In this document: piece by piece, positions 22,328 to 61,765 of the stretch
Position numbering within the stretch: the first letter of the stretch is position 1
How the letters are laid out: each line of letters opens with the position of its first letter
Translations under genes and position numbers: made by a program
Assembly: GCA_949358305.1 (NCBI GenBank)
Contig: OX442322.1
Span: 9,050,001-9,114,000 of the forward strand
DNA from: Strigamia acuminata
Taxonomy: Eukaryota > Arthropoda > Chilopoda > Geophilomorpha > Linotaeniidae
DNA length: 64,000 bases
Reading direction: 5' to 3'
Notes under the pieces: generated by a model
Told to the model about the DNA's origin: nothing
Databases searched by the model: none
Seen by the model: the letters and a program-made list of their open reading frames with translations, nothing else

Positions 22328-22362
22328 TAGATTGCCGGCGAAAAGAAAGTGCGAACAACCCA

Positions 22363-25380: not shown

Positions 25381-25895
25381 AATCCTCACCGAGAAATGAA
25401 GAATTCAAGGATCAGTTCAGGATTCAAACTCAACTTAACTGACTAAATTGGTTAACAAGAAATTGTCTAATTCTTTTACACTCTAGGATTTACTGAACAC
25501 ACAAAAACGGGATGGATATCCACAAGCTGTTAACAGGATTGAAACACACGGGATGTTAACAGGATTGGCAAATTAACCCCCAAAATTCAATAATTAAAGG
25601 TAATTGACAATTCTCTTATTTTCACAATTGAGTTTCTGACTAGATACTCGTTTTAAATTGGGATACCAACACTAAAGCTTAGTATTATTCACTAATTCAC
25701 TGGATATTCTCTAAATTCCACAAACTGGAATCGAGAATTTATTCAAACTGTTAAGACTTAAACTTCTTCTCCCCCCAACTACACCAGTTTCTAATCAAAA
25801 ACTCTTTTTGAAATAATTACAGCAGCAAATTCGGATATTATTCTATTTAAATAATAATTCTTAATAATTATTTCTTCAAATCTTCTTGTAGGATG

Positions 25896-25910
25896 TACAT
25901 TGCGTTGTGT
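25896..25910 (-). promoter_or_regulatory. Conserved leader block, B-
   Basis: Minus strand ACACAACGCAATGTA, identical to B+ at 56270-56284 and shared with F, C, D and E. About 288 bases from the primer site. Confidence 0.55.
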
Positions 25911-26186
25911 TTGGAATTGATTGTCGTGCAGGATCGCTCGTACTCTCGAAGCCTTGCTTGATCCAAGTTGAAAAACATCTTGACCATCTTGACAATTTGA
26001 GAATCCAACTTGAAAAACCCACTTTTTTGCCTGTGAAAGGCGGACGAGAGCATACACTTCACTGTAGTGGCACAGCTTCAATGGCACTTTACACATAAAA
26101 GCTTTGCACAGCTTGAAAACAAAACCCACTGATGAATTTTGCAGCACACATGAAGGTCCACTGAGATAACTGGAAGAAATCCTTGG

Positions 26187-26198
26187 TTCACGGTACCA
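26187..26198 (-). other. Primer-binding site of B-
   Basis: Minus strand TGGTACCGTGAA, 3 bases after the LTR end. B+ has TGGTGCCGTGAA at the same place, so the two copies differ by G to A at the fifth base; F has the same A. Confidence 0.65.
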
Positions 26199-26201
26199 AA
26201 T

Positions 26202-27559
26202 TGTTTCTGGCAAGGTCGCAGGCGACAACCAGGCCAGAAGGAGGGGCGGCAATACTTGACTGCTGCTTGGCTAAAATTGATACACAGAAGTTGGCCAAAG
26301 ACTTGAAGAAATGCAAACACTGGAATTGAACTTGCTGCTTCACATGTTGATCTGCCACTGGTGAGTTCAAGGAGGAGGAAGGAGGATTTTTCTACTCACT
26401 GCACATTGCTTTCTGGTTGTATAGAGAAATGAGACTTGGAGAGAAATAAAAAGCAACCATTTTATTCTCTAAATTCTTAACAACACTACTACAATTGAAT
26501 CACGAGGATTTTACAAAGAAGTCACACTTTAACAATAATAAGAAACAACAAGTGTAACTATCTCCACATTGTATAAGGACACTTGCACTTAAAGTTACAG
26601 AGGTCTCTAAGTGCTTGTAAAGAGAAATAAGTACTGCTGGCACAACAAAACTACCGTAGAAGTTAATAGTTGAAAACACATAAGCCTAACAGCAAGTATT
26701 TGACATTAAATGCAAAAGTATACATTAACAACAGTCTCTAAACACAATGCTCATTGAGAACTAAATTATTCACTCTAAAACACACTGAACAACTCATAAA
26801 ATAGAGAAAAGAATAAGTAAAGACATTTTAGACCAATGAGCTGGCAACTTTACAGTAAGTGCAGAAGTTAAGTTATAAATCAACACAGATAAATCTTAAA
26901 CTTAACACTTTTACATTGCATAATAATTAAGTGATTAATTATTAATCAGAACCCACAAAAACTCTTTGGGATTAAACATTTTCTCCTCTCTTTACAGATA
27001 CAAGTAGACCACTCCCACAGTAATGGCCGACAATGTAAACAGAGATCACTTGCAGGAAGATAAAAAGGCTTGAAATTAGCTCACCAGACAGGCTACACAC
27101 AATCTAAGTTAACATAACGCTTAATTGGTTAGTAATATACAGAAAACAAACAGAAATTGATTGAAACAGCTTAAAACTGATAATAACATACATTTCTCAT
27201 TCTAGTACCCTTTTGCTGTCTGAGAGCATCATTACACCTTGTCACTACATTGACAGTAGTGGACTGGAAACAGGAAAACACTTGGAAACATCAAAACATG
27301 CATAACACAGGTAAACAAGATAGAAAATAAATTCTAAGTGGATAAATAACTAATGTAAAAACTCTTTTCTTCCCAGATTTATCCGGTCAGATCAACCAGT
27401 ACTGAGAAATTCACTCAAACTAACTCAAAGAAGACTTATATTCAGATAAGTGTCTAATTAAATTCCCAATCTAAGATAAATATTAAAAACCCTTTTTAAT
27501 AATTCCAGATGACTAATTTTTAAGACGTTTAGCAGCTTTCCTTTATGTTGCTAGCAACA
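26202..27559 (-). repeat. 5' LTR of B-
   Basis: 1358 bp, paired with 20970-22327. Several positions set both B- LTRs apart from both B+ LTRs, so the two elements are independent insertions and not a recent segmental copy. Confidence 0.95.
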
Positions 27560-40305: not shown

Positions 40306-41774
40306 TGTTGCAAACAACGTGGAATAATTTAGAAACTACTTTTATTGCCAATTTGTGTCTGAATAAATGTTTCCAAAGTGTGTTTTATTTTGCATAACAT
40401 TTCAGTTTTTATTTACAGGATTTTTGCATTATTAAAATGTTTTTAGTGCTTTCAGATACTGATGTTTGATGAAATGTGATATTCCATTGTTTATTGCATT
40501 TATTTCTAGTGTTTATTGCGTGATTTTGTGTTACTTTATTCATTTTCTATCAATTTGTGTGATTTCGGGTGAAATTTGGTGCATTTGTTGTTAAACAGTT
40601 CACTAGTGTTATCGACGTGACGTCATATTTCAAGTTCTAGTTCGGTTTTTGTTCAAACTTCTAACCTTCCGTTTGGACGGAATTTTGATGGTTAGAATTG
40701 TTTTTGACATTGTTTTAGACTAATTTGGGGGTGATCTGTTGATTCGTGCACTCTAATTTCGTCCCGGAACAGCCGTTTTTCTGCTACGAGCGATCGTGAC
40801 GGACCCCGCATGTGCGTTGCCGTCCAAGATCGTTTCGTTCGGTTTGCGGTTGATTTCAAGTGTTCTTTCATTAAAACGTGTCTTGTTTGCGGGAAATTAC
40901 ATTTCCTGAACTTATTTACTTATTCCAAAGTGTTTACATAAGTTATTTCTTGTGTTGAAATTCAAACCTTGTGTTTTGCCGCCAATGTAGAGTTTACCGG
41001 ACGCCATGTTGGATTTTGTCGATGATTTGTAAATCTTTCATGTCGTTTTGTTTTTATATCTCAATTGGTGTTTGTACTATTTAGTTTTAGTGTATTTCAA
41101 TGCAAAATCTTTACTTATTTGGTTTTGTGTGTGACTTTGAATTCAAACTTGATGATTATGTCATTTTGCTTGTCTTTGATTGGTTAGGCCCAATTGTCTG
41201 CCTAGCGATCACTGTTTTCGCTGTTTTCTCATTGTTTTGATTAACGAATCTTGTTGTTACGATAGACTTTATTATTCCTGAGTTTTTTGTGCTCATTTTG
41301 AGTTATTACACATTATTTTTAGTACATTTCTCGTAATTTGTTGTCTTTGCTTGAAATTGCATTTCCTCCGTTTCCATGTCAACGGAGTATTTCTTTATTG
41401 TAATTTGCCAACAATTGGTTTGGCGTGTGCCATCCTATTATAATGTGTAATTATTGAGTTGCCATTTTATATTTGATTAAAATAGTCGTGTTAATGTTAA
41501 CTCTTGTATTTTCTGCTTTTGACCCATTTCCAATGTGTCCTGAGTAGAGAACCATTTTTCCCAGACTGGCCAATGGATCAGCAAGCACTTGGATACCATG
41601 CAAAAGTGTTTCCAACAGTTAAACCTTCATGTAACAGGAGATTTTGAGGCGAATCAAGTGCATTTCCACACGGTACACGTACGAATTTCACTATACGATC
41701 GTTTGAGTTTGTTGGCGGGAGTTTCGAATCGCCACATCTCAGTTCTTCTCTGTTCCTGTTGACTGACCGCAACA
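40306..41774 (+). repeat. 5' LTR of A+
   Basis: 1469 bp, TGTTGCAAACAACG at the start and CCGCAACA at the end. Contains a YY1-like CGCCATGTTGG near 41002-41012, ATTAAA at 41476-41481 and TGAGTAGAGA at 41541-41550. Confidence 0.96.
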
Positions 41775-41789
41775 TCGAATAAGAATTTT

Positions 41790-41803
41790 TGGTGCACGTG
41801 ACC
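41790..41803 (+). other. Primer-binding site of A+
   Basis: TGGTGCACGTGACC. Compared with A- (TGGTGCCGTGACC) it has one inserted A, and a further inserted T lies just downstream. These departures from the tRNA-like sequence could reduce priming in this copy. Confidence 0.6.
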
Positions 41804-42245
41804 ATGGATTTCGTCTGCTTCTTGTGGGTTTTTTCCGGTTCATCATTTGATACGTTCAACCGTGCGTCTGGTGCGATTGACGGAAATTACGTCCGTGAGT
41901 CGTCGTCTGCTAGAATGGTCGTCGTTCAACGTGGCAACAGCCACAACGGGGATTTATTTGGCGTCGATCACGAACATTTCTGTGCAAGCAACGAGATTCT
42001 TCGGTCGACATCTTGGATTACACAACGCGCTGTGCTGGAAAGCCGATTTGCCCCTGAAATAATTGCTTATTCTTGTGTTTTGCATTCAGTGCTTGTATTT
42101 CTAAGATTTTGGTTGCATGAGGGTATTGTATTGGGTATTTCAAAGCTGTTTTTGCTTTTTCCTAAGCTAGTTTTGAGGGAAAATTCACTGAAAGTGTATT
42201 TTATTGTGAATTTTTCAAGTGCTTTCTTGATTTTTGTGCATGCAT

Positions 42246-42273
42246 CTCCATATAACTGGCTTAACCAGGGGAG
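42246..42273 (+). ncRNA. Leader hairpin of A+
   Basis: Outer arms CTCC/GGAG, inner arms CTGG/CCAG, ATATAA between the 5' arms, loop CTTAA. Element F (475-502) has inner arms CTGC/GCAG at the same spacing. The surrounding sequence is otherwise poorly conserved between A and F. Confidence 0.55.
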
Positions 42274-42684
42274 ATTTAGATTTTTTGGAGTTAGAAACTG
42301 TTCAGTCTCTCATTGCAAGAGCTGTCAGTTATTCTCGTGAATCTGATAGTGATTTTCTGGCTAGATTCGTTCCGTACGAACAGCAGAAATAATTCAAACT
42401 TGTGTAGGACTTTTTGAGTCACGTTTTTAATACGTGATCAAGGTCGCTCGTTTGTTTTAGCATCCTTGATTGCTAAAACACTCGATATTCTTGTGCATTT
42501 TCAAGGTTTTTTGTCGTTTGGGCAAGAAAACTTTGAAAAATTCTGTTCTTTTAAAGTAAATGATTGTGAATTTTATTCTTTTCAAGTGTAAAGTTTATAA
42601 TTTATTCCTTTTAAGTTTAAAGCGAAGTGTTTTGTTGTTCAAAATATTATCTTCTGTTTCATAATTTACAGCCGTGAATTTGAG

Positions 42685-45600
42685 ATGGAGAGAGATAGAG
42701 ATACAGAAACTTCCGAACGCGATTTACTCACTGTGGAGCAAATTGAAATACTAGAGACCAGGTGGGAAGCACAACTTTCATCTCTCAACGACTTGCTGTC
42801 TTTGTCGGAGAAGACGAGCGATCCAGGAGAGTTAGAAGCGCTTCTGCTTACTGCAAATCTGAAAGAGACACGCGTTGTAAATGGCCTGAACGAGCTTCAA
42901 GTCTACTGTGAGCACGCGTTTTACCTTGAGAGTGTCGAGAAACTGGAATCATCACAAACGAGAGTGGAACTTCTCCGAAGAAGGTGGGAGGTTTCAAAGC
43001 GGTCTCTTCCAACCCTTGGAGGAAGACTCAACATGTCTACAGTTTCCGGTGCAAATACATCCTTGAATACTTCGACTTCTTTCCGCAAGAATTCCAAGTT
43101 GCCCAAACTTGAATCTGTAAAGTTTGACGGGGAGATAATCAAATACAAGACGTTTAAGAGCAACTTTGAAACTTCTGTTCATAATGACCCAGATCTGAGC
43201 AGTGTTGAAAAGTTGCAATACCTTCAAACTATGTGTACAGGTGAGGCTGCGGCTTTGATTTCCACCTTTCCTTTGATCGAGGAATCCTATGACTTGGCAC
43301 GGGAAGAACTTGATCGTAACTATGGCGATGAGGATGCGCAACAGACGGCTCTCATCCAATCCATTCGAGACTTGAAGACTGTTTCAAGCATATACCCGAC
43401 AAAGGTGTTGAAAGCAAATTTGACGAAAATTTCTTCAACAATACGACTTCTTGAGCAACTGAAGATTCCTGTACGGACATCTGGTGCATTTCTGATGCCG
43501 GACATTCTTAGCAAGTTTCCTGCTCCAATGACTTTGCGTTTTTACCAAGTCCATGGACTGTCTTGCAAGAACATTTTGACTTTGCTTGACTTTTTTCAAA
43601 AGGAAGTAGCTATGGCAGAACGCACTGAAGCTGTTTCTCCATCTGAAAAAGCAAAGAAGGAAAAGTCTGAAGTTGAAAAGGCTAAAGTTAAAGGATCCAT
43701 GACGACTTGCACCGCGACGCAAGACTCAAAATCGTCTTCAAGCTCCAAAGTGAAGACAGAGTCGAGACAAGAGAACAAGTCTGCGAATTCCAAGGCACTC
43801 AAGTGCATTTTTTGTCAAGAAGACCATTTGAGCGGTTCTTGCAAAAAGGAGTTCGAAATCAATGCAAAGATTGAATTGATAAAGAAAAACAGACTTTGCT
43901 TTAATTGTTTTCGAACAGGTCATCGCGTTGGTGACTGCAAAGTGAAGTTTTCCTGCAAGCATTGTGGCGGAAGACATCATTCAACCATTTGTAAGAAGTC
44001 TGAGGTGAACAATTCTCCAAGTCCGACAGAGAAACCCAAGGAGTCGCAAGTGACCACACACGTCTCGTGCGCGATATCCACTTCTCTTCAACTTATGATT
44101 TTTGTTGCTGACCTCAAAACCAAATCTGGAGGTTCACACCACATCAGAGGCATGATTGACCCGGGTAGCCATCGGTCATTCATTACAACTGAACTGGTGA
44201 ACCGACTAAAACTGAAGAAGTGCGGCAGTATTTCTGCGACCACACAACGGTTCAACGATTCTATGCCTGCTGCCACTGATTACGACGTATACAACGTTAC
44301 TCTTCAAAGCAAGAATGACGCACAAAACTTCAAATTATCAATGCTTTCAGTGGAAAATTTGCCGAAAGTGCAGGGCATTTTGAATGCATCGGTAATAGAA
44401 AAGGTGAAGAAGCTGAATCTTGAACTTGCCGAAGATCTGCCAGCCAAGACATCTCAAATAGACATTCTTTTGGGAGTTGATGCCTGGTGGAAAGTCATTA
44501 AAGATGGCAAAAAGAAAATCAACGACGATCTTGGACTCATAAATACGTTATTTGGATGGGTGCTTATCGGAGCAGCCGGAAATACGGATTTATTCGAAGA
44601 TGAAGCTGATTTGACTTCATGTTGTAATACTTGCAACATAGAAATCCATGAACAATTGGACAAACTTTGGAATTTAGAGGCAATTGGGATTAATGCTGGT
44701 GAAAAAGAATCCGATTTCACAAGAGATCGATTTGAAGCCACGACAAAACGTCTCGATGACGGAAGATACGAGGTGATGCTGCCTTTTAATGGACAAGAAA
44801 CTGACTTGGACTCAAACTGGGAGCTCGCACTTAACCAATTAGCCAACACATTGAAGAGAATCGACTCAAATGACGATTATAAGAAGCGATATGACGACTC
44901 AATGTGGCAATACATTGAAGAAAACCACGCTGAGGAAGTTCCAACTGAAGAACGGTTCCTAAAGAAAGGGACATATAACATTCCACATCATCCAGTGATC
45001 AAAGAGGACCGGGAAACAACGAAATTCAGAGTCGTATTCAATGCGTCGTCTGCGAAAAAAGGAAAACGATCATTAAATGACTGCCTTTTTCCTGGACCAT
45101 CTTTGAATCCAGATTTGATATTGGTGATGGTCAGATTCAGATTGTATTGCATTCCAATCATTGCTGACATTAAACAAGCATTCCTCCAAGTAATGATAAA
45201 CCCCACACATAGGAACTTTCTGCGTTTTTTGTGGGTTTCGAAGCAATATTTCAAGAACCCCTATTCGTGGAGAAATTTGTGGAATAATATTATGATTTTG
45301 AGGATGATAGTCGTACCATTTGGAGTTATTTCCTCTCCTTTTCTCCTGTGCGCAACAATTCGGAAACAAGCTGATCAATACAAAGAGACACATCCGAAAG
45401 AAGTTGATGCACTGGACGCCGGGATATACATGGATGATTTAACTTCTGTAGGTGATCACACGACAGACACAACAAAACATTGTGAAGAATTAAAAATGAT
45501 TTTAGATGACGGGAAACTCCCACTTGTTAAATGGGCAACAGCCAATGAAAAGGTTTTCAATGACATCAAAGAAAAGGGATTTCACATGAGAAGTGACGAA

Positions 45601-47937
45601 TTCTGTGAACAAGGAGTTATAAAAATGCTTGGAATCTTATGGGACACGCAAGAAGACGTCCTCATTTTCAGGATTCCACAAATGGACATTATTCCGAACA
45701 CAAGACGTGAAGTTCTCTCTTTGGTAGCCTCTATTTTCGACCCGATGGGACTCATTTCTCCAGTCGTTTTGAAAATGAGACTCCTTCTTCAAGACATTTG
45801 TCTACGTACAAAGAACTGGGACGGAAGAATTTCGGACTCAGAAAAGCAAGAGATTGACGAATGGAGTCGAGACATCCAGAAATTAAAAGACTATAAGGTA
45901 CCTCGATGGTTAGAAACCTATTCTAATGAAGAGTTGAGTATTGAAGTTTTCTGTGATGCCAGCACTAAAGCCTTTGGATGTGCAATTTTCATCGTCAACA
46001 ACAAAGGAAAAAGAACTTTGCTACTCAGCAAATGTAGACTAGCCCCTGCAAAAAAGATTACCTTGCCTAGACTTGAATTAACTGCTGCGGTCGTTGGTGT
46101 ACGAATGTGTCAGTATTTGACAAATAACTTTCTGCCAGGTTATCCAATCAAGGACATTCGATATTTTTCTGATTCCACCATAACTTTGGCTTGGATAAAT
46201 TCGAAGAAAAATGAGTGGAAGCCTTATGTTTCTAACCGCGTTCAGGAAATTGTTTCATCGTCTGACGCAAGCCAATGGTCACATATTCCGACAGAGTTCA
46301 ATCCTGCAGATCTACTTACACGACCACACGATGCAAAAACATTAGTGACAAATAAACTTTGGTGGAACGGCGTGGACGTTTCTAAAATCGAAAAAGTCGA
46401 GGTCGTGCAAGAAAAACTACCCGAAGAAGAAAAAAGAATTGTGGTTATGAATGTTCAAGTCAAAGAGACATTTATAAGCAAATTTTTCAAAAGATATCGC
46501 AACTTCAACCGTCTAGTTAGAGTATTTTCGTACATTTTGCGCTGGAAATCTCATCGTTTTCGCGGCGAAGATCTCGCGCAACGCGAAATGGAATCCAGTC
46601 AAATTAGGATTCTTCAATTTTCACAAGAAATCTACTTTCGAGAAGAGATCGAAGCTGTGAGAAACAAGACTGAAGTTGAGAGATACTCCCCTTTGAAGAA
46701 TTTCGAATATTTCTTAGATGAGGATGGACTTTTACGTTTGCGCAGCAGACTGAGATTGTCTTTGCTTTCATTTGACGAAAAATACCCGATTCTTTTGCAT
46801 AACGAAAGTTGGGTAACTAGACTAATTATTCGCAAGACTCATCTTGATCTCATGCATGGAGATTTGAGTGAAACGCTTTATCGAATTCGTGAGAAATTTT
46901 GGGTTCTCCGAGGACGCAGGACCATTCAGACTGTGATAAGAGAATGTTCCGTTTGCAGAAGGACTAAACTTGCAAGAAATAATCCGTCTACTGGAGAATT
47001 ACCGAAAGAAAGAGTAACCCCAGCAGCTCCTTTTCAACACACCGGAATCGATCATTTGGGACCTATTTTTGTGGGAAAGGACAAAAAACGATTGAAGAAA
47101 ACATACATTTTATTATTCACTTGTATGGTTACACGAAGTTTACATCTCGAAGTGTCCGAAGATTTATCCACTGAGAAATTCTTATTGGCATTCAGACGAT
47201 TTTGTGCTCGTTACGGTTGTCCAGCAAAAGTCTTCTCGGACAACAGTAAAACCTTTGAAAAAGGAAGTACACAAATTCAGTCATGGGGAAAACTGATTGG
47301 CCGTTCGGACATAAAAACATTTCTGTCTGAGAAAAGGATTGTATGGACATTTATCCCTCCGCTCTCACCGTGGATGGGAGGAGCTTGGGAGAGACTAGTC
47401 CGCTCAGTCAAGGATAAATTGCGGAAAACTTTATTGCGACACACTGTGGATTTGGAAACCCTACAAACCTTGGTTCTTGAGATCAGCTCCGTGTTGAATT
47501 CACGACCTTTGTCGTATGTACACGAAAATATAGACGGCGGCAGAATCCTTTCACCTGAAAACTTTTTAACGGGAGGTATGCCGAAATACATGATCAACAA
47601 GACCTTGAATGCAATCAAGAAAAGTGACCTTCGAAAACTCGACAAGAAAAGAAGACAGTTCATTTGGGATTTTTGGAGTATATGGAAACACAGTTACTTG
47701 ATGCAGTTAAGAAACTTTTATGAGACTAAAGGAGATAAATCTTTTCAAAACCCCAAAATTGATCAGATTGTTCTTCTTGAAAAGATGGGAACCAACCCTT
47801 ACTTTTGGCCTCTTGCCAGAATAAAACAAGTTTTTCCTGGTGATGATGGACTAATTCGCATCGTCAGTGTTGTGCTTCCCGATGGAAGAGAGTTGCGTCG
47901 TTCTGTAAGGCATATTAGAGCCCTTGAACTTGATTGA
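42685..47937 (+). CDS. BEL/Pao Gag-Pol polyprotein (A+), 1750 aa
   Basis: Same domain order and length as the A- polyprotein: DUF1759 Gag, three CCHC knuckles, DUF1758 protease (DPGS 492-495), RT with YMDD (915-918), RNase H/A17 region, integrase with HHCC and D1456, D1519, E1569, then a DUF5641-like end. All catalytic residues are kept. Differences from A- are scattered single residues (for example D6 for E, V922 for G, F1517 for I), none at an obvious catalytic site. The stop at 47935-47937 is followed by 58 bases to the 3' LTR. There is no frameshift between gag and pol, so the amount of Gag must be set by processing or another route not visible here. Confidence 0.97.
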   Translation: MERDRDTETSERDLLTVEQIEILETRWEAQLSSLNDLLSLSEKTSDPGELEALLLTANLKETRVVNGLNELQVYCEHAFYLESVEKLESSQTRVELLRRRWEVSKRSLPTLGGRLNMSTVSGANTSLNTSTSFRKNSKLPKLESVKFDGEIIKYKTFKSNFETSVHNDPDLSSVEKLQYLQTMCTGEAAALISTFPLIEESYDLAREELDRNYGDEDAQQTALIQSIRDLKTVSSIYPTKVLKANLTKISSTIRLLEQLKIPVRTSGAFLMPDILSKFPAPMTLRFYQVHGLSCKNILTLLDFFQKEVAMAERTEAVSPSEKAKKEKSEVEKAKVKGSMTTCTATQDSKSSSSSKVKTESRQENKSANSKALKCIFCQEDHLSGSCKKEFEINAKIELIKKNRLCFNCFRTGHRVGDCKVKFSCKHCGGRHHSTICKKSEVNNSPSPTEKPKESQVTTHVSCAISTSLQLMIFVADLKTKSGGSHHIRGMIDPGSHRSFITTELVNRLKLKKCGSISATTQRFNDSMPAATDYDVYNVTLQSKNDAQNFKLSMLSVENLPKVQGILNASVIEKVKKLNLELAEDLPAKTSQIDILLGVDAWWKVIKDGKKKINDDLGLINTLFGWVLIGAAGNTDLFEDEADLTSCCNTCNIEIHEQLDKLWNLEAIGINAGEKESDFTRDRFEATTKRLDDGRYEVMLPFNGQETDLDSNWELALNQLANTLKRIDSNDDYKKRYDDSMWQYIEENHAEEVPTEERFLKKGTYNIPHHPVIKEDRETTKFRVVFNASSAKKGKRSLNDCLFPGPSLNPDLILVMVRFRLYCIPIIADIKQAFLQVMINPTHRNFLRFLWVSKQYFKNPYSWRNLWNNIMILRMIVVPFGVISSPFLLCATIRKQADQYKETHPKEVDALDAGIYMDDLTSVGDHTTDTTKHCEELKMILDDGKLPLVKWATANEKVFNDIKEKGFHMRSDEFCEQGVIKMLGILWDTQEDVLIFRIPQMDIIPNTRREVLSLVASIFDPMGLISPVVLKMRLLLQDICLRTKNWDGRISDSEKQEIDEWSRDIQKLKDYKVPRWLETYSNEELSIEVFCDASTKAFGCAIFIVNNKGKRTLLLSKCRLAPAKKITLPRLELTAAVVGVRMCQYLTNNFLPGYPIKDIRYFSDSTITLAWINSKKNEWKPYVSNRVQEIVSSSDASQWSHIPTEFNPADLLTRPHDAKTLVTNKLWWNGVDVSKIEKVEVVQEKLPEEEKRIVVMNVQVKETFISKFFKRYRNFNRLVRVFSYILRWKSHRFRGEDLAQREMESSQIRILQFSQEIYFREEIEAVRNKTEVERYSPLKNFEYFLDEDGLLRLRSRLRLSLLSFDEKYPILLHNESWVTRLIIRKTHLDLMHGDLSETLYRIREKFWVLRGRRTIQTVIRECSVCRRTKLARNNPSTGELPKERVTPAAPFQHTGIDHLGPIFVGKDKKRLKKTYILLFTCMVTRSLHLEVSEDLSTEKFLLAFRRFCARYGCPAKVFSDNSKTFEKGSTQIQSWGKLIGRSDIKTFLSEKRIVWTFIPPLSPWMGGAWERLVRSVKDKLRKTLLRHTVDLETLQTLVLEISSVLNSRPLSYVHENIDGGRILSPENFLTGGMPKYMINKTLNAIKKSDLRKLDKKRRQFIWDFWSIWKHSYLMQLRNFYETKGDKSFQNPKIDQIVLLEKMGTNPYFWPLARIKQVFPGDDGLIRIVSVVLPDGRELRRSVRHIRALELD

Positions 47938-47995
47938 TGTGTGTTTTGCAGACTTCTCTCATCTCTCTTCTCTCTCTTTCTCGCTGGCAATTCGT
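47938..47995 (+). other. Pyrimidine-rich 3' junction of A+
   Basis: Between stop codon and 3' LTR the sense strand is TTTTGCAG, then a long C/T run, then GCTGGCAATTCGT. LTR elements normally have a polypurine tract here as primer for plus-strand DNA. The same polarity is seen in B, C, D, E and F. Confidence 0.6.
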
Positions 47996-49464
47996 TGTTG
48001 CAAACAACGTGGAATAATTTAGAAACTACTTTTATTGCCAATTTGTGTCTGAATAAATGTTTCCAAAGTGTGTTTTATTTTGCATAACATTTCAGTTTTT
48101 ATTTACAGGATTTTTGCATTATTAAAATGTTTTTAGTGCTTTCAGATACTGATGTTTGATGAAATGTGATATTCCATTGTTTATTGCATTTATTTCTAGT
48201 GTTTATTGCGTGATTTTGTGTTACTTTATTCATTTTCTATCAATTTGTGTGATTTCGGGTGAAATTTGGTGCATTTGTTGTTAAACAGTTCACTAGTGTT
48301 ATCGACGTGACGTCATATTTCAAGTTCTAGTTCGGTTTTTGTTCAAACTTCTAACCTTCCGTTTGGACGGAATTTTGATGGTTAGAATTGTTTTTGACAT
48401 TGTTTTAGACTAATTTGGGGGTGATCTGTTGATTCGTGCACTCTAATTTCGTCCCGGAACAGCCGTTTTTCTGCTACGAGCGATCGTGACGGACCCCGCA
48501 TGTGCGTTGCCGTCCAAGATCGTTTCGTTCGGTTTGCGGTTGATTTCAAGTGTTCTTTCATTAAAACGTGTCTTGTTTGCGGGAAATTACATTTCCTGAA
48601 CTTATTTACTTATTCCAAAGTGTTTACATAAGTTATTTCTTGTGTTGAAATTCAAACCTTGTGTTTTGCCGCCAATGTAGAGTTTACCGGACGCCATGTT
48701 GGATTTTGTCGATGATTTGTAAATCTTTCATGTCGTTTTGTTTTTATATCTCAATTGGTGTTTGTACTATTTAGTTTTAGTGTATTTCAATGCAAAATCT
48801 TTACTTATTTGGTTTTGTGTGTGACTTTGAATTCAAACTTGATGATTATGTCATTTTGCTTGTCTTTGATTGGTTAGGCCCAATTGTCTGCCTAGCGATC
48901 ACTGTTTTCGCTGTTTTCTCATTGTTTTGATTAACGAATCTTGTTGTTACGATAGACTTTATTATTCCTGAGTTTTTTGTGCTCATTTTGAGTTATTACA
49001 CATTATTTTTAGTACATTTCTCGTAATTTGTTGTCTTTGCTTGAAATTGCATTTCCTCCGTTTCCATGTCAACGGAGTATTTCTTTATTGTAATTTGCCA
49101 ACAATTGGTTTGGCGTGTGCCATCCTATTATAATGTGTAATTATTGAGTTGCCATTTTATATTTGATTAAAATAGTCGTGTTAATGTTAACTCTTGTATT
49201 TTCTGCTTTTGACCCATTTCCAATGTGTCCTGAGTAGAGAACCATTTTTCCCAGACTGGCCAATGGATCAGCAAGCACTTGGATACCATGCAAAAGTGTT
49301 TCCAACAGTTAAACCTTCATGTAACAGGAGATTTTGAGGCGAATCAAGTGCATTTCCACACGGTACACGTACGAATTTCACTATACGATCGTTTGAGTTT
49401 GTTGGCGGGAGTTTCGAATCGCCACATCTCAGTTCTTCTCTGTTCCTGTTGACTGACCGCAACA
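47996..49464 (+). repeat. 3' LTR of A+
   Basis: 1469 bp, identical as read to 40306-41774. Ends CCGCAACA, followed by AAGG and element D sequence. Confidence 0.96.
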
Positions 49465-53513: not shown

Positions 53514-54619
53514 GCGTTGCCGGCCAAAGAAGAAGGGAAGGCAAGGCAGAAAACTGTTGAAGGAATTCCCCATCAAAACCAAGAGCACGGAAAGAAAAAG
53601 TATCGAAGCCAAGCTTGACTTTGTGAAAGTCGCGAAGGCAAAACCATAGACACTAAAAGAAACTTAGAACACGAGAGAAGAAAGAGAAGGGCCGTGCCAT
53701 GATGACCTAGTCCAGACACCAAGGGGCTACGGCGTCGCCAATAGACACGTGGCGCACACGCAAGAACCTTCAGAAAATCCGACTGAACGGGTTTTCTAAC
53801 CAAAACGACGTGAGAACATTGCGGGAGCTTGTCCGAAAACTCAGTCTGTCAACCCGTAGACAGACGCTTAAACTAAACGGAAACTAAAAATGGGAGAACA
53901 GAAATCCTTGTCAGAGAGGAAAGGCGCTGGTCCAAAACAATCGTCCAACCAAACACCGAGGTTAGAAGTCTCAGAACCGAAAACTAAACGTCGTCGAAAA
54001 AAGGAAAACTGTCACAAAAACTCTTGATCGAGCATGGCCTCGCAAGGAACATGACATACATGAAGACTAGAAGAAACTTGAAACGCAAAAAAGAACAAAC
54101 TTGAGACACGGCAGACTTCACCGCCTCGTTGTCCTCGAGCCAGCGCTCAAGTGGCAACGTGCCACGGAAACCTCCGTCCGCACGAAAACACGAGCTGCGA
54201 ACTCAAACTTAATAAACTATTAAGGACGACCCTTTTCTAGAAAACAAGAAAAATGCAAAATAAGGGAATGAATGCGTTGACCCAGACCTATCGTCTGACC
54301 AACCACCCAGCATTCGTACGAAGAACTAGAAAATGCCGTCAAGACCTAGGCACCACTCTTTTGCAAAGAGTGACCAACTAACAACTTACCCAAAGCCATG
54401 ACCACCTAGCTAACATGATCACGCCAGAAAGAGGAAAAAGAGAACGAGAAGGCATGAAGCTCAGGCAATGCGAACCATTCGCAGCAACTGCCACGCAAAG
54501 GCGTTGACCGCACCCTGACTTGACATGAACCCACGAAACCGCTAAGAGCAGAGAATAAAGAAAAAAGGAAAGACTTAGTCAGGTGACTGTGTAAACCATC
54601 TGCGACCTCTTGTCCACAG
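53514..54619 (-). other. Element E internal region, 3' part
   Basis: Homologous to D 38405-39676, lacking about 130 bp present in D near 38540-38680. No supported gene. Ends in ACAG (54616-54619), the B+ target duplication. Confidence 0.75.
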
Positions 54620-55977
54620 TGTTGCTAGCAACATAAAGGAAAGCTGCTAAACGTCTTAAAAATTAGTCATCTGGAATTATTAAAAAGGGTTTTTAATATT
54701 TATCTTAGATTGGGAATTTAATTAGACACTTATCTGAATATAAGTCTTCTTTGAGTTAGTTTGAGTGAATTTCTCAGTACTGGTTGATCTGACCGGATAA
54801 ATCTGGGAAGAAAAGAGTTTTTACATTAGATATTTATCCACTTAGAATTTATTTTCTATCTTGTTTACCTGTGTTATGCATGTTTTGATGTTTCCAAGTG
54901 TTTTCCTGTTTCCAGTCCACTACTGTCAATGTAGTGACAAGGTGTAATGATGCTCTCAGACAGCAAAAGGGTACTAGAATGAGAAATGTATGTTATTATC
55001 AGTTTTAAGCTGTTTCAATCAATTTCTGTTTGTTTTCTGTATATTACTAACCAATTAAGCGTTTTGTTAACTTAGATTGTGTGTAGCCTGTCTAGTGAGC
55101 TAATTTCAAGCCTTTCTATCTTCCTGCAAGTGATCTCTGTTTACATTGTCGGCCATTACTGTGGGAGTGGTCTACTTGTATCTGTAAAGAGAGGAGAAAA
55201 TGTTTAATCCCAAAGAGTTTTTGTGGGTTCTGATTAATAATTAATCACTTAATTATTATGCAATGTAAAAGTGTTAAGTTTAAGATTTATCTGTGTTGAT
55301 TTATAACTTAACTTCTGCACTTACTGTAAAGTTGCCAGCTCATTGGTCTAAAATGTCTTTACTTATTCTTTTCTCTATTTTATGAGTTGTTCAGTGTGTT
55401 TTAGAGTGAATAATTTAGTTCTCAATGAGCATTGTGTTTAGAGACTGTTGTTAATGTATACTTTTGCATTTAATGTCAAATACTTGCTGTTAGGCTTATG
55501 TGTTTTCAACTATTAACTTCTACGGTAGTTTTGTTGTGCCAGCAGTACTTATTTCTCTTTACAAGCACTTAGAGACCTCTGTAACTTTAAGTGCAAGTGT
55601 CCTTATACAATGTGGAGATAGTTACACTTGTTGTTTCTTATTATTGTTAAAGTGTGACTTCTTTGTAAAATCCTCGTGATTCAATTGTAGTAGTCTTGTT
55701 AAGAATTTAGAGAATAAAATGGGTTCTTTTTATTTCTCTCCAAGTTTCATTTCTCTATACAACCAGAAAGCAATGTGCAGTGAGTAGAAAAATCCTCCTT
55801 CCTCCTCCTTGAACTCACCAGTGGCAGATCAACATGTGAAGCAGCAAGTTCAATTCCAGTGTTTGCATTTCTTCAAGTCTTTGGCCAACTTCTGTGTATC
55901 AATTTTAGCCAAGCAGCAGTCAAGTATTGCCGCCCCTCCTTCTGGCCTGGTTGTCGCCTGCGACCTTGCCAGAAACA
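54620..55977 (+). repeat. 5' LTR of B+
   Basis: Starts with the perfect palindrome TGTTGCTAGCAACA and ends CCAGAAACA. Contains AATAAA near 55713 and TGAGTAGAAA at 55781-55790. The 3' end of this LTR carries short frames that recur at every copy only because the DNA is repeated. Confidence 0.96.
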
Positions 55978-55980: not shown

Positions 55981-55994
55981 TGGTGCCGTGAACC
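55981..55994 (+). other. Primer-binding site of B+
   Basis: TGGTGCCGTGAACC starts 3 bases after the LTR end; the first 11 bases match the tRNA-His complement. B- differs by one base. Confidence 0.7.
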
Positions 55995-56269
55995 AAGGAT
56001 TTCTTCCAGTTATCTCAGTGGACCTTCATGTGTGCTGCAAAATTCATCAGTGGGTTTTGTTCTCAAGCTGTGCAAAGCTTTTATGTGTAAAGTGCCATTG
56101 AAGCTGTGCCACTACAGTGAAGTGTATGCTCTCGTCCGCCTTTCACAGGCAAAAAAGTGGGTTTTTCAAGTTGGATTCTCAAATTGTCAAGATGGTCAAG
56201 ATGTTTTTCAACTTGGATCAAGCAAGGCTTCGAGAGTACGAGCGATCCTGCACGACAATCAATTCCAAA

Positions 56270-56284: not shown

Positions 56285-56797
56285 ATCCTACAAGAAGATT
56301 TGAAGAAATAATTATTAAGAATTATTATTTAAATAGAATAATATCCGAATTTGCTGCTGTAATCATTTCAAAGGAGTTTTTGATTAGAAACTGGTGTAGT
56401 TGGGGGGAGAAGAAGTTTAAGTCTTAACAGTTTGAATAAATTCTCGATTCCAGTTTGTGGAATTTAGAGAATATCCAGTGAATTAGTGAATAATACCAAG
56501 CTTTAGTGTTGGTATCCCAATTTAAAACGAGTATCTAGTCAGAAACTCAATTGTGAAAATAAGAGAATTGTCAATTACCTTTAATTATTGAATTTTGGGG
56601 GTTAATTTGCCAATCCTGTTAACATCCCGTGTGTTTCAATCCTGTTAACAGCTTGTGGATATCCATCCTGCTTTTGTGTGTTCAGTAAATCCTAGAGTGT
56701 AAAAGAATTAGACAATTTCTTGTTAACCAATTTAGTCAGTTAAGTTGAGTTTGAATCCTGAACTGATCTTTGAATTCTTCATTTCTCGGTGAGGATT

Positions 56798-59700
56798 ATG
56801 GCTACATTATCCGCTGCTGATCTCGAGGAAAAGGAGGTCATTTGGAAAGCAAAGGCTCAAGGAGCCGAGGATCTGCTGGGATCTTCAGTCAACATTCTAG
56901 ACGGAGGAGAGCTGGAAGCCATGCAAATAACGGTTGACCAGCAATTGAGTGATCTCGCCGACGAATTGAAAGCTCTTAAAGACGAGTCAAAAAGAGAGGA
57001 CTATTTAGCGGGGCTTCAACGAATTGAAGACATTAGAACCAGAGTAAATTTATTGAAGCAAAGAGCAAAAGTGTCTGGAAAAATGGCAGGGCAATTTGGT
57101 TCCCATCCGGGACAGAATTCCAGTTTAAACCAGACGTCCGCTTCATCTAGGAGAAACACGAGATTGCCGAAAACCGACATTGCCAAATTTAGTGGCGATG
57201 CAACTGAATATAGAGGTTTTGCGAATTTATTCGAATCAGCAGTTGATCAGAACACGGAGCTTTCGAACGTGGAAAAGCTTATATATCTGAGATCATGCTG
57301 CACTGGGGCTGCAGAATCCGCAATCAAGTCGTACCCAATAACTGATGACGCCTACCCATTAGCGAAAAATACATTGGAGAGTCTATTCGGATCTGAAAAC
57401 ACGCAGAGAAATGCGATTTCAAAGATGATTAGGGAGTCGAAACCCGTTTTCGATCTCTACCCAATCGAGCCACTTAAAGCTCTATTCACGTCATTGGCAT
57501 CTGCTGTCCGGACCATGGCGCAACTGTCTGTGTCAGTTGACACTACTGGAACGTACCTTATTCCAGAACTACTTAGAAAATTTCCACCGGAGATCTCCCA
57601 ACGTTTTTACCGAAAGCATCAAGGAAAAGTTGATGATGTTAACGTTTTTCTGGACTTCGTAGCAACCGAGATACAACTGGCTGAATTGTCGGAAGAAAGC
57701 GTTCTCCTTAAGCGCGCTCATCTGAAGAAGTCAGAAAAATTTGAGAAAACTTCAAAGGAAACAAGAGAAAGACCAACTGGAACCATGTCCTCATTCGTGA
57801 CTTCCGAGAATGGAAAATTGAGTATGAATTCCAAGTCAAATCCAAACCGCAAACCCGCCTGCGCTTATTGTGATGGTGATCACGCACACGCAAATTGTGA
57901 TGCGGATCTCGATGTACCAGCGAGGATCGAAATAGTGAAGAAGAAACGACTTTGTTTCAACTGCTTGAGATATAACCACACAGCCAAAGAATGTACCGTG
58001 AAGTTTTGTTGTCGCTTGTGTGGTGGAAGACATCACACATCGATCTGCAACAAAAACAACAAAGAAAAAGCGATTACACCAAAAGAAGAAAACGTGTCTA
58101 CTAATGTATCGCTTACCGAGTCGGTGGAGATTCAACTGATGGTCTTCACTGCTCTTTTTGTGAAGAAAAATGGAGACATGTACCCCGTCCGCGGATTACT
58201 AGATCCAGGAAGCCATCGCTCCTACGTCACGAAGAGACTAGTAAATAAATTCCGGATGCAAAAGATCGAGACACTACACACGATGACACAGTGTCTGCTC
58301 AACAAAAAGCCAGTTCCGACGACACATGATGTCTTTAGATTCGAACTACAATCAAGACACGGAACAAAAAAGACATCAATCCTTGCATTAGAAACCGACA
58401 CACTCCCGAAAGTCAAAGGGATAATTGGAGCAGAAGCCATAAAGCAAGTCCAATCACTCGGACTTGAGATGGCTGAGATACATCCGTCAGAATCGGAAGA
58501 CATTGACGTCTTATTAGGAAGCAACGCATGGTGGAAGATTTGTCAAGGTGGAAGCCGAAAAATCAACGACGAGTTGGGATTAATGGAGACAATTTTTGGG
58601 TGGATTCTAAACGGTCGACTGAAACCAAACAACCCGCTTGAAGAAAACATGGCAGCGTGCAACATTTCTTGCATGGCGGTCGAGTCCAAAGAAGAAGTGA
58701 TCTCAAATCAACCTGAAAATGACGAAAACAAAATAGTCCAATTAATTCCGAAATCACTGCCCAACAGGAATGGCGAACCCGGTGTGAATAAACAGACAGA
58801 CGTCACACCTTCTTGTTTTGCCGCGAGCCTCTCCAGTGGTCTGGAGAAAGAGGAACTGGACACCACCCTCCAAAAAACGAAAAAGTCGTTCAAGGATGGA
58901 GGATTGGTCAACAGAACTCCAAGCTCGGACATGAAGCCGGAATTACGAGGGCGAAATCAGTTAGAGTCAGGGAGAAAGAACGTCGAATTACTTACAAATC
59001 AAGTGCACAGTTTGCAAAAATTGTGTGCAATCGTGAGATGGAGTGGAAACGTGATTCTGAATTTCTGGAAAAAGAAAATTGATTTGTCAACCAATCAAAA
59101 GGGAATTCATCTCATCATTGGTCCAATGTATGCGGGGAAAACGACCAAGTTATTGAAGCTTTTAGAAAAGGAAGAGAAGACGTCGTCCCTGCTAATTAAA
59201 CACTCCAATGACGATCGTTACAGTAAAACCGAAGTCGTGACCCACGACGGTCATCGACGAGAAGCAATCGCGACCAGTAGCCTAATCAATGCTGTGGAAA
59301 AAACGAAATTAGTGAAGACAATCGGAATTGACGAAGGACAGTTTTTTCCCGACATTTTTACTTTTTCAAATGAAATGGCTGAGCAAAAGAAAAAGGTAAT
59401 AGTCGCCGCATTAGACGTCGACTTCAAGAGGAAGCCATTTGATCAGATATCCAAGTTAGTTCCACTAGCCGAGTCTGTTGTGAAACTACAAGCAAAATGT
59501 TATTTTTGCGGAGATAAAGCTGAATTTTCAAGACGAATTTCGCACGAAACCAGAGTCAAGATGATAGGAGGGATCGACAAATACAAACCAACCTGTCGAG
59601 TATGTTTCTCAAAGCCCATGAAGTCCCTAGAGACGAAAAGGAAAATCATCAACGGAATTATTCGACTTAGTTGTATGATTGTCAACCGAAGAATACCTCC

Positions 59701-59815
59701 GTGGATACCAAATTTGATCCGTCAAAGAATCATGCCACCCAGAGTGGAATACGAAAAGGTGAAAGAGGTCTCCCAAATATTATCATCAAAGACCAGAAGT
59801 AATCAAACTAAATGA
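56798..59815 (+). CDS. Gag-protease-thymidine kinase polyprotein (B+), 1005 aa
   Basis: Intact second copy of the fusion described for B-. Gag (DUF1759), three CCHC knuckles and DUF1758 protease precede a full TK1-type domain with P-loop, IDEGQFF, RKPF and the CX2C...CX2C zinc site, with 28 residues between the pairs. About six residues differ from B- (for example E194 for K, T478 for R, R657 for M, H737 for P, Q740 for P, T841 for A). Only the last is within the kinase, just before IGIDEG, and it is conservative. The stop lies 35 bases from the 3' LTR. Cleavage by the element's own protease could release the kinase; whether it does is unknown. Confidence 0.96.
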   Translation: MATLSAADLEEKEVIWKAKAQGAEDLLGSSVNILDGGELEAMQITVDQQLSDLADELKALKDESKREDYLAGLQRIEDIRTRVNLLKQRAKVSGKMAGQFGSHPGQNSSLNQTSASSRRNTRLPKTDIAKFSGDATEYRGFANLFESAVDQNTELSNVEKLIYLRSCCTGAAESAIKSYPITDDAYPLAKNTLESLFGSENTQRNAISKMIRESKPVFDLYPIEPLKALFTSLASAVRTMAQLSVSVDTTGTYLIPELLRKFPPEISQRFYRKHQGKVDDVNVFLDFVATEIQLAELSEESVLLKRAHLKKSEKFEKTSKETRERPTGTMSSFVTSENGKLSMNSKSNPNRKPACAYCDGDHAHANCDADLDVPARIEIVKKKRLCFNCLRYNHTAKECTVKFCCRLCGGRHHTSICNKNNKEKAITPKEENVSTNVSLTESVEIQLMVFTALFVKKNGDMYPVRGLLDPGSHRSYVTKRLVNKFRMQKIETLHTMTQCLLNKKPVPTTHDVFRFELQSRHGTKKTSILALETDTLPKVKGIIGAEAIKQVQSLGLEMAEIHPSESEDIDVLLGSNAWWKICQGGSRKINDELGLMETIFGWILNGRLKPNNPLEENMAACNISCMAVESKEEVISNQPENDENKIVQLIPKSLPNRNGEPGVNKQTDVTPSCFAASLSSGLEKEELDTTLQKTKKSFKDGGLVNRTPSSDMKPELRGRNQLESGRKNVELLTNQVHSLQKLCAIVRWSGNVILNFWKKKIDLSTNQKGIHLIIGPMYAGKTTKLLKLLEKEEKTSSLLIKHSNDDRYSKTEVVTHDGHRREAIATSSLINAVEKTKLVKTIGIDEGQFFPDIFTFSNEMAEQKKKVIVAALDVDFKRKPFDQISKLVPLAESVVKLQAKCYFCGDKAEFSRRISHETRVKMIGGIDKYKPTCRVCFSKPMKSLETKRKIINGIIRLSCMIVNRRIPPWIPNLIRQRIMPPRVEYEKVKEVSQILSSKTRSNQTK

Positions 59816-59850
59816 TGGGTTGTTCGCACTTTCTTTTCGCCGGCAATCTA

Positions 59851-61208
59851 TGTTGCTAGCAACATAAAGGAAAGCTGCTAAACGTCTTAAAAATTAGTCA
59901 TCTGGAATTATTAAAAAGGGTTTTTAATATTTATCTTAGATTGGGAATTTAATTAGACACTTATCTGAATATAAGTCTTCTTTGAGTTAGTTTGAGTGAA
60001 TTTCTCAGTACTGGTTGATCTGACCGGATAAATCTGGGAAGAAAAGAGTTTTTACATTAGATATTTATCCACTTAGAATTTATTTTCTATCTTGTTTACC
60101 TGTGTTATGCATGTTTTGATGTTTCCAAGTGTTTTCCTGTTTCCAGTCCACTACTGTCAATGTAGTGACAAGGTGTAATGATGCTCTCAGACAGCAAAAG
60201 GGTACTAGAATGAGAAATGTATGTTATTATCAGTTTTAAGCTGTTTCAATCAATTTCTGTTTGTTTTCTGTATATTACTAACCAATTAAGCGTTTTGTTA
60301 ACTTAGATTGTGTGTAGCCTGTCTAGTGAGCTAATTTCAAGCCTTTCTATCTTCCTGCAAGTGATCTCTGTTTACATTGTCGGCCATTACTGTGGGAGTG
60401 GTCTACTTGTATCTGTAAAGAGAGGAGAAAATGTTTAATCCCAAAGAGTTTTTGTGGGTTCTGATTAATAATTAATCACTTAATTATTATGCAATGTAAA
60501 AGTGTTAAGTTTAAGATTTATCTGTGTTGATTTATAACTTAACTTCTGCACTTACTGTAAAGTTGCCAGCTCATTGGTCTAAAATGTCTTTACTTATTCT
60601 TTTCTCTATTTTATGAGTTGTTCAGTGTGTTTTAGAGTGAATAATTTAGTTCTCAATGAGCATTGTGTTTAGAGACTGTTGTTAATGTATACTTTTGCAT
60701 TTAATGTCAAATACTTGCTGTTAGGCTTATGTGTTTTCAACTATTAACTTCTACGGTAGTTTTGTTGTGCCAGCAGTACTTATTTCTCTTTACAAGCACT
60801 TAGAGACCTCTGTAACTTTAAGTGCAAGTGTCCTTATACAATGTGGAGATAGTTACACTTGTTGTTTCTTATTATTGTTAAAGTGTGACTTCTTTGTAAA
60901 ATCCTCGTGATTCAATTGTAGTAGTCTTGTTAAGAATTTAGAGAATAAAATGGGTTCTTTTTATTTCTCTCCAAGTTTCATTTCTCTATACAACCAGAAA
61001 GCAATGTGCAGTGAGTAGAAAAATCCTCCTTCCTCCTCCTTGAACTCACCAGTGGCAGATCAACATGTGAAGCAGCAAGTTCAATTCCAGTGTTTGCATT
61101 TCTTCAAGTCTTTGGCCAACTTCTGTGTATCAATTTTAGCCAAGCAGCAGTCAAGTATTGCCGCCCCTCCTTCTGGCCTGGTTGTCGCCTGCGACCTTGC
61201 CAGAAACA
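59851..61208 (+). repeat. 3' LTR of B+
   Basis: 1358 bp, identical as read to the 5' LTR. Preceded by a sense-strand pyrimidine stretch and GCCGGCAATCTA at 59839-59850. Confidence 0.96.
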
Positions 61209-61765
61209 ACAGCGACAAGGAAACACGCGCACGCTGACCCATCAACCACAACTTTATCTAACTAACAAGAGAAAAACGGTTCAATTATCTAAACAGAACG
61301 AGCACGTTCCGTGCAAATAAATACCGGCTAAAACGTCAATATTATCACTAAAGCTATTGGCCAAGTATGGCCTCACAAAGGAAACTAGCAAACCGGAACT
61401 GTGAAAACCAGCAAGAATTCCAAAACACTAAACTTTCTGCTTTTTTTTTTCGAAGAGGGAACAAGTCCGTACCCAAATAATCAATCCATTTCCTCCCCAC
61501 GAGAAAAGAAAGGAAAGGGACCTGCTTCTTTTTGAAGATCAACAGGTGTCATATGATACTGAAAAACGTTGGAAGCAGTGCAACTGCAACCAAATGAAGC
61601 GAAGCTACACTTCCTTCACGAAAACTAATCACGTCGTTGAAAAGAAATTAAAACCGGTGGCTTTCTTTCAACCGAGCTGCGCTTTACGAATGCGCCTTGA
61701 ACAAAGAGGTACCCGATGGACATCGCGTCCGCACTCGGGCCACCGTGTAGCCTGTTGTGAGCAGA

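Follow-up and report, generated by a model that had tools for sequence, protein, structure and literature searches.

Fusion of Gag to a cellular gene is familiar from the Gag-onc retroviruses, for instance those with gag-myc, in which Pol has been lost and a helper is needed; these are short-lived isolates, whereas the element described here forms a lasting germline lineage. The betaretroviruses MMTV and MPMV retain Pol in the same genome as their NC-dUTPase. This fusion (p30 in MMTV) is reported to be present in virions (PMC4531489) and likewise joins an enzyme of thymidylate supply to a Gag product, although it is a dUTPase rather than a kinase. The maize LTR element Bs1 carries captured host gene segments, none of which is reported to be of full length (PMC13317346), whereas the gene discussed below encodes a complete enzyme, apparently under purifying selection and present in many copies. 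Crocodilian endogenous retroviruses have likewise captured host mRNA, that of KIT-ligand or nectin3, with purifying selection reported, apparently for the KIT-ligand ORFs (PMC4299795); these are vertebrate endogenous retroviruses, however, and the captured genes do not encode nucleotide enzymes.

The BEL/Pao LTR retrotransposons (Belpaoviridae) share with the present element an LTR pair, a short target duplication, a DUF1759 Gag with zinc knuckles, a protease region and a primer-site-like sequence. Their LTR length is given by the ICTV as 0.2-1.2 kb (PMC8742986), compared to 1,358 bp here, and they differ from the element in having reverse transcriptase (RT), RNase H and integrase where it has a TK1-type thymidine kinase (TK). 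What distinguishes the present element, as read from the sequence, is a complete thymidine kinase fused to the Gag of an LTR element in place of Pol, in many copies, in the centipede Strigamia acuminata. Among the papers listed in literature searches, with subscription journals and Repbase outside their scope, none was seen to describe an LTR retrotransposon that naturally carries a TK; the author of an earlier note on this DNA knew of none.

The window, that is, the whole stretch of 64,000 nucleotides that was analysed, holds two such Gag-TK copies in inverted orientation as well as autonomous BEL/Pao elements (Table 1).

Table 1. Features of the window, in positions counted from its first nucleotide
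Feature	Position	Strand	Remarks
Target site duplication, 5' side (ACAG)	54616..54619	+	read directly
5' LTR of copy 1, 1,358 bp, TGTTGC...AAACA	54620..55977	+	0 differences from 3' LTR
Primer binding site-like TGGTGCCGTGAACCAAGG	55981..55998	+	resembles B2, A1 and A2 sites
Gag-protease-TK open frame of copy 1	56798..59815	+	1005 aa from ATG
DUF1759 (BEL/Pao Gag)	57188..57613	+	Pfam, residues 131-272, 1.9e-17
Three CCHC-type zinc knuckles	57860..58054	+	translation read by eye; Pfam zf-CCHC just 0.14
Protease-like region with LLDPGSHRSYV motif	58115..58657	+	homology to autonomous A1
Fast-evolving linker	58718..59095	+	dN/dS 0.68 (0.36-1.56) within B1; 29% identity B1 vs B2
TK1-type thymidine kinase domain	59105..59608	+	Walker A GPMYAGKT, DEGQFF, two CxxC pairs
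C-terminal tail (NRRIPPWIPNLIRQRI)	59618..59812	+	similar in B2 and B3; dN/dS 1.0 within B1, 0.36 within B2
TTTCTTTTCGCCGGCAATCTA directly 5' of 3' LTR	59830..59850	+	similar in autonomous A1, A2
3' LTR of copy 1	59851..61208	+	identical to 5' LTR
Target site duplication, 3' side (ACAG)	61209..61212	+	
Second Gag-TK copy	20970..27559	-	LTRs 20970-22327 and 26202-27559, frame 22363-25380, duplication GAAC
Autonomous BEL/Pao A1 copy	40306..49464	+	LTRs 40306-41774 and 47996-49464, Gag-Pol 42685-47937, duplication AAGG
Gag-Pol of second A1 copy	11301..16553	-	

The frame of copy 1 extends from stop to stop over 56774-59815 (1013 aa), with its first ATG at 56798, as the earlier note had stated, and 0 internal stops or introns. 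It encodes, in this order, a BEL/Pao Gag, a protease-like region, a linker, a whole TK1-type thymidine kinase and a tail. Over Gag-protease, the frame is 37-38% identical to A1, the window's autonomous BEL/Pao family (37% over 638 aa), and the match stops at residue 625. Since this homology ends just before the reverse transcriptase, the TK occupies the place of Pol; no Pfam family of RT, RNase H or integrase is found in copy 1 at E<=1. With regard to the protease, the PF05585 (DUF1758) profile, which the earlier note had proposed as a check, does not match copy 1; the protease is recognised from the homology to A1 and from weak Pfam matches of the B2 relative (Asp_protease_2, 4.2e-4; DUF1758, 7.4e-3). 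The architecture that the note had read from the letters, BEL/Pao Gag and protease followed by a whole TK1 that takes the place of RT, RNase H and integrase, is thus borne out by the frame, Pfam and the homology to A1. As the stop codon leaves only 35 bp before the 3' LTR, and given the missing enzymes, the element is filed only as a non-autonomous BEL/Pao derivative.

The LTR border of copy 1 contains one ambiguous base, by which the repeat could be extended to 1,359; it was counted with the duplication by analogy with a B2 copy, in which the duplicated site, CAGT, is clearly 4 bp long. There is no clear purine run 5' of the 3' LTR that could be taken for a polypurine tract, and a TCGCCGGCAAT-like motif, common to A1, A2, B1 and B2, stands there instead. 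The exact 18-mer TGGTGCCGTGAACCAAGG occurs 7 times genome-wide, and its counterpart in copy 2 differs by one base.

A fusion of this kind, with two inverted copies in one window, could arise as an assembly artefact or chimaera. This reading is refuted. Among 150 scored TK matches (from 204 candidates, genome-wide), at least 98 Gag-TK copies were counted by hand on many contigs, so that the single misassembled locus which the earlier note had named as fatal to its claim is not what is found. Moreover, the LTR ends are clean, the target duplications differ between copies (GAAC/GAAC, read by eye, flanks copy 2), and the genome is a HiFi assembly with QV 59.6 (PMC10556566). Copies 1 and 2 differ at 8/1359 LTR and 20/3871 internal positions and are therefore independent insertions, with 0 differences inside the LTR pair of copy 2. 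Full-length open frames of 995-1013 aa are present in 84 of the 98 copies among the matches scored, which fall into two lineages, B1 and B2. Two long frames of 1999 and 2054 aa on C130, apparent polyprotein-TK fusions, were rejected, since they read through a stretch of 5,000 N.

The TK segment, placed at residues 769-942 by the earlier note, is matched by PF00265 at residues 770-937 (3.3e-54; profile positions 3-176 of 176). It shares motifs, fold and 42-45% identity with cytosolic TK1 (human 1xbt, 2wvj), with a sequence match of 1e-42 to human TK1 and, for the predicted model (pLDDT 81), a Foldseek match of 1.6e-13 to 1xbt; it differs from the human enzyme in its fusion to Gag-protease and in its grouping with other repeated TKs of its own genome. 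Of 57 columns conserved at >=95% among 34 outside TKs, B1 retains 47 and B2-995 retains 46. Walker A, DEGQFF and the four zinc cysteines are complete in 38/38 loci (L001-L038), a set made up of the top-scoring matches and hence biased towards intact ones. The element TK is very probably an active catalyst. TK yields dTMP only, and two more kinases must be supplied by the host.

Identity between B1 and B2 amounts to 57% in Gag, 59% in protease and 56% in TK. No dN/dS is given for this comparison because dS is saturated. Within B1 (B1-1013 against B1-1009), dN/dS is 0.21 (0.09-0.45) for TK, 0.68 for the linker and 0.13 for Gag; within B2 (B2-995 against B2-814, dS 0.94), it is 0.118 (0.068-0.197) for TK, 0.082 for Gag-protease and 0.41 for the linker. 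The TK is thus apparently under purifying selection over longer times, at 0.12-0.21, near Gag. The TK variants among 30 B1 loci of very recent origin comprise 9 nonsynonymous and 7 synonymous changes, and selection is therefore visible over longer times and not in the newest copies. That the TK is a passive passenger, captured by chance and intact merely because its copies are young, would agree with this lack of clear constraint, with the existence of elements without a whole TK (B3 and C14, below) and with the identity of the LTR pairs in every copy examined, namely two of B1 and the B2 and B3 copies partly covered by the fetched stretch. The values for B2, obtained at a dS near one, and the open frames of both lineages despite their TK divergence make this reading very unlikely, and it is disfavoured given dN/dS. 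Selection via the element's own replication is the somewhat more probable basis for the retention of the TK.

Related elements indicate what the TK is not required for. In the sister lineage B3, only a TK remnant with 15/57 conserved columns is left, and the C-terminal tail is still recognisable despite this decay; the lineage is recent, with 5 Gag matches and LTRs that are identical across the 819 bp retrieved. In the C14 element, a TK is absent. Since B3 spreads with a remnant and C14 has none, the TK is dispensable for mobility as such. The decayed TK of B3 and its absence at one locus suggest one early capture, with retention in B1 and B2 and later decay or absence elsewhere; the order of B3 and C14 has a support of 92/93 in a Gag-protease tree of 6 rows.

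With regard to the origin of the TK, a first tree of 47 rows, with 36 outsiders chosen by hand from listed proteins, united the B1 and B2 TKs in one clade (98/97) and gave no resolution of its position among other TKs. In a second tree, from which 8 rows had been dropped (six outsiders on account of their long branches and two Strigamia rows as redundant), the B clade received 100/98 and nine of nine Strigamia TKs were joined at 99/97, a grouping obtained with Strigamia as the sole myriapod and to which long branches may contribute. In this tree, the closest TKs to that of the element are thus the other TKs that are repeated in its genome; inside the clade, a grouping of B with the 190/216-aa types is one possible order (p-AU 0.43). 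A viral source is the less likely possibility: among viral contigs, 45 stretches matched a pattern and 8 encode a TK, with at most 35% identity, and the rows of the tree include none of these. The last 436 aa of the frame, searched against a protein database, gave 12 matches, TK only; this search says nothing on absence elsewhere, because its length window of 0.55-1.75 times the query excludes a Gag-TK of 1,000 aa.

The motif DEGQF[FY]xD has 174 matches in the genome, sorted by motif (100/174 places listed directly, the others assigned from earlier pattern lists) into 94 of the Gag-TK type (including two decayed relics), 79 that belong to three types, all repeated and intronless, and 1 chance match, at C5:648329. 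An apparent host TK1 exon at C1:37500694 was rejected as a decayed relic, B2-like by eye, and the match at C1:45922189 is likewise a decayed relic, in this case B1-like (77% over 70 aa). The genome had 0 matches to patterns that contained Val, or a C at codon position two. No ordinary or intron-bearing TK1 gene was recognised among the 174 matches. The intronless frame fits the earlier proposal of capture from mRNA, but the intron-bearing parent gene that this implies was not among them. That the lineage, having traded its Pol for a TK, supplies its own thymidylate inside the particle, and that centipede salvage now depends on repeat-borne TK genes, is, taken together, unlikely.

The element is, with high probability, non-autonomous and mobilised in trans, as the signals at its ends suggest. 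Its primer site and the motif preceding its 3' LTR are shared with a present and recent autonomous BEL family, primer-site-like sequences being similar among B1, B2, A1 and A2. The A1 copy at 40306..49464 has 0/1469 LTR differences. Autonomous frames measure 1778/1781 aa in A1 and 1751 aa in A2, and 127 RT matches were scored out of 947 candidates, many of full length and in the same chromosome regions. A1-type elements likely supply RT and integrase. An ancestral BEL/Pao element would have lost RT, RNase H and integrase, gained a TK1 free of introns where the protease ends, and spread since then with RT and integrase borrowed from autonomous BEL elements with matching LTR-end, primer-site and pre-3' LTR signals.

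Our main reading, with a probability of about 0.5, adds to this trans-mobilised BEL/Pao element a Gag-linked TK that raises thymidylate for reverse transcription. The element RNA would yield Gag-protease-TK; the TK, carried on Gag, would enter or adjoin the particle and phosphorylate thymidine, and dTTP would then not limit, or dUTP not contaminate, reverse transcription where cell salvage is low. Kinase activity, packaging and dTTP benefit are what we infer from this arrangement, the last two having been marked in the same way by the earlier note, and action inside or near the particle falls just short of an even bet. The NC-dUTPase fusion in MMTV and MPMV virions offers a precedent (PMC4531489). 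Against this reading stand the spread of B3 with a mere TK remnant, the lack of a TK in C14, the newest B1 variants with their lack of clear constraint, the two further host kinases that dTTP requires, and the model, whose rmsd to human TK1 is ~10 A when all aligned positions are counted and whose second half is predicted with weak confidence.

Alternatively, the protease may cut the TK free to act as an ordinary cytosolic enzyme, raising whole-cell dTTP to the profit of element or host without packaging. A protease region between Gag and TK, a linker evolving as a spacer or cleavage zone might, and the failure to recognise an ordinary TK1 among the motif matches, so that repeat-borne TKs may supply salvage, are all compatible with this possibility, which we regard as rather unlikely. 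The Gag fusion is kept in both lineages at their present divergence, suggesting that the link matters, and other intronless TK genes could serve the cell. The TK1 fold forms tetramers, and the TK might be retained as a structural module for Gag assembly, or for protection of the C-terminus instead of Pol, with catalysis irrelevant. Its location at the Pol position and the recognisable tail of B3 would fit; the intact catalytic and zinc motifs of the best-scoring loci, in lineages so diverged in TK, render this improbable.

The element departs from the frequent fate of captured genes in LTR elements, which are often fragments or dead ends, as here a complete DNA-precursor enzyme takes the place of Pol. 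This enzyme seems to have been kept by selection while B1 and B2 diverged, and has decayed in a sister lineage. Two questions are thereby made testable: whether thymidylate limits reverse transcription in a germ line, and whether an element devoid of a polymerase can profit from supplying that of another element. The pairs of intact and decayed TKs that occur naturally in this genome are open to such comparison.

The frame of copy 1, the Gag-protease-TK element in the window, is uninterrupted from end to end and encodes, in this order, Gag (DUF1759), a protease-like region, a linker, a TK1-type thymidine kinase (TK) and a C-terminal tail; zinc knuckles in Gag were recognised by eye. The earlier note had read this frame as a single Gag-TK fusion devoid of RT, RNase H and integrase, and both points hold: there are no stops, the TK profile PF00265 is matched over its full length (3.3e-54), and none of the three missing enzymes gives a Pfam match at E<=1 in the protein. 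Moreover, the stop codon lies 35 bp from the 3' LTR, which leaves no space for Pol. The LTRs of copy 1, of 1,358 bp each, show no differences between them, and the target duplication is ACAG, with one border base ambiguous. Copy 2, on the opposite strand, has its own target duplication (GAAC), LTRs with 0 differences and 20 differences from copy 1 in 3,871 internal positions. The two copies are recent, independent insertions.

Location of the features discussed
Feature	Position	Strand	Description
Copy 1 (B1)	window 56798-59815		Gag-protease-TK frame
Motif ahead of 3' LTR, copy 1	window 59830-59850		TCGCCGGCAAT-like
Copy 2	window 20970-27559	minus	Gag-protease-TK element
A1 copy	window 40306-49464		autonomous BEL/Pao, Gag-Pol
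Satellite	window 31644-36195		140-bp units, some 147
293-aa frame	window 51412-52293	minus	no Pfam family
B3 copy (L045)	C13:8666400-8672900		Gag-protease and decayed TK remnant, one open frame, 892 aa
897-aa element (L046)	C14:37000-42600	minus	Gag-protease frame without TK
Relic L048	C1:37500694		decayed Gag-TK
Relic L063	C1:45922189		decayed Gag-TK
Intronless TK (L042)	C3:1769000-1778900		multicopy gene
Frames beside 221-aa TK	L043 1446-3470, 9437-9901		ankyrin-repeat and weakly Ulp1-like, on two sides

The satellite of the window also borders a B2 element (L044) and an A2 element (L053, L054); the B3 copy is not flanked by it.

The genome set searched comprised 157 contigs and 237,517,015 bases, the published assembly qcStrAcum1.1 being given as 158 scaffolds and 237,534,282 bp, about 17 kb more (PMC10556566). 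The host is taken to be the geophilomorph centipede Strigamia acuminata; the COX1 of the set matches one centipede best, at 87%, followed by horseshoe crabs and a second centipede at 86%. In all, 98 Gag-TK copies were found among the 150 of 204 candidates scored in the TK-domain search, with types counted by hand from the rows, and 84 of them have a full-length frame. Lineage B1 accounts for 54 (1013 aa in 34, 1009 aa in 13, others in 7) and lineage B2 for 44 (995 aa in 32, 1002 aa in 5, others in 7); the remaining 52 scored matches are TKs within other open frames. The full TK motif set is present in all 38 best-scoring loci (L001-L038), which represent 13 distinct proteins across the motif span. 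A Gag search, with 101 of 1,112 candidates scored, recovered B1 and B2 again, together with the 892-aa lineage B3 (5 matches, 46% identity) and a single 897-aa locus (49% identity). Two decayed Gag-TK relics lie outside the main clusters and point to earlier activity.

The A1 element encodes a Gag-Pol of 1,750 aa between LTRs of 1,469 bp with 0 differences, and is flanked by the duplication AAGG. The B protein aligns to it with 37% identity across 638 aa, up to B residue 625 of 1005, immediately upstream of the A1 reverse transcriptase, whose start was read from the sequence by the author. Since the match stops before RT, Gag and protease are retained, and TK is located where Pol would be expected, with about 130 linker residues ahead of it. 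RT and integrase are likely supplied in trans by autonomous elements resembling A1 and A2. Of 947 candidates in an RT search, 127 matches to these two families were scored; many of them lie in frames of 1,751-1,781 aa, and they largely share stretches with the Gag-TK copies on C13, C5, C1 and C8. Furthermore, B1, B2, A1 and A2 have in common the LTR ends TGTT...ACA, similar primer sites and the TCGCCGGCAAT-like motif directly upstream of the 3' LTR; no plain polypurine tract is seen there, in copy 1 or at the A1, A2 and B2 borders. The primer-site 18-mer of copy 1 has only 7 exact matches in the genome, so the primer site differs among copies.

Both trees place B1 and B2 in a single clade by their TK domains (98/97 and 100/98). 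In the second, from which eight rows of the first were left out, the nine sampled Strigamia TKs group together (99/97) against 30 outside rows. Identity between B1 and B2 is 57% for Gag, 59% for the protease region and 56% for TK, but falls to 29% for the linker. B1-1013 and B1-1009 give a TK dN/dS of 0.21 (bootstrap 0.09-0.45); for B2-995 and B2-814 the value is 0.118 (0.068-0.197), the latter pair giving 0.082 in Gag-protease and 0.41 in the linker. By contrast, among 30 recent B1 loci there are 12 distinct TK sequences, with 9 nonsynonymous and 7 synonymous changes relative to the window copy, as expected if selection works over longer times.

B3 keeps the TK start and the C-terminal tail, without DEGQFF or the zinc pairs, and retains 15 of 57 conserved TK columns, versus 47 of 57 in B1; the remnant aligns with a score of 65, the maximum in 2,000 shuffles being 52. 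The LTRs of the B3 copy show no differences within the 819 bp fetched. Mobility with a decayed TK shows that TK is dispensable for movement as such. The C-terminus of the 897-aa element has hydrophobic, membrane-like stretches, recognised by eye, and no Pfam family was found in it. In a six-row Gag-protease tree, B3 splits off before the 897-aa element and B1+B2 (92/93, 99/99). The simplest history is a single capture before these elements separated; TK would then have decayed in B3 and been lost or replaced in the 897-aa element, and B1 and B2 would have kept it in lasting use.

Among the 120 listed of 4,402 database matches, those most similar to the window TK come from animals (TK1s) and from metagenomes, with at most 51% identity, and viral contigs reach at most 35%. 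The pattern DEGQF[FY]xD has 174 matches in the genome (first 100 places listed). Earlier motif lists cover 172 of them, 93 with Ile after Asp (one a decayed relic) and 65 plus 14 in three intronless TK types; the other two are a decayed Gag-TK relic and a chance match. No ordinary intron-bearing TK1 was recognised among the 174; a gene that lacks the motif, or whose motif is split by an intron, would escape this pattern. The multicopy intronless genes (L041, L042, L043, L050 and others) are of 190-aa, 216-aa and 221-aa types, with 60, 14 and 5 motif matches, respectively. One copy of the 190-aa type on C3 and one on C9 show 100% identity across 4,421 bp, where the match stops at an N run.

By its sequence, motifs and predicted fold, the captured domain is of TK1 type, though the second half of the model is weak, with pLDDT blocks of 51-79, and the model deviates from human TK1 by an rmsd of about 10 Å. 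The product of TK is dTMP, which requires host kinases onward to dTTP. A Gag-linked TK would work at the site of reverse transcription. In resting cells dNTP levels are described as limited (PMC7999308), and the NC-dUTPase of betaretroviruses, reported in virions (PMC4531489), offers a parallel to the Gag-linked TK. TK may work inside or close to the particle, with a probability of roughly 0.45, and a free cytosolic role is rated somewhat less probable.

Both the capture of genes by LTR elements and the fusion of nucleotide enzymes to Gag are already known, and no report of a whole thymidine kinase replacing Pol in a lasting retrotransposon lineage was found in the literature searched.
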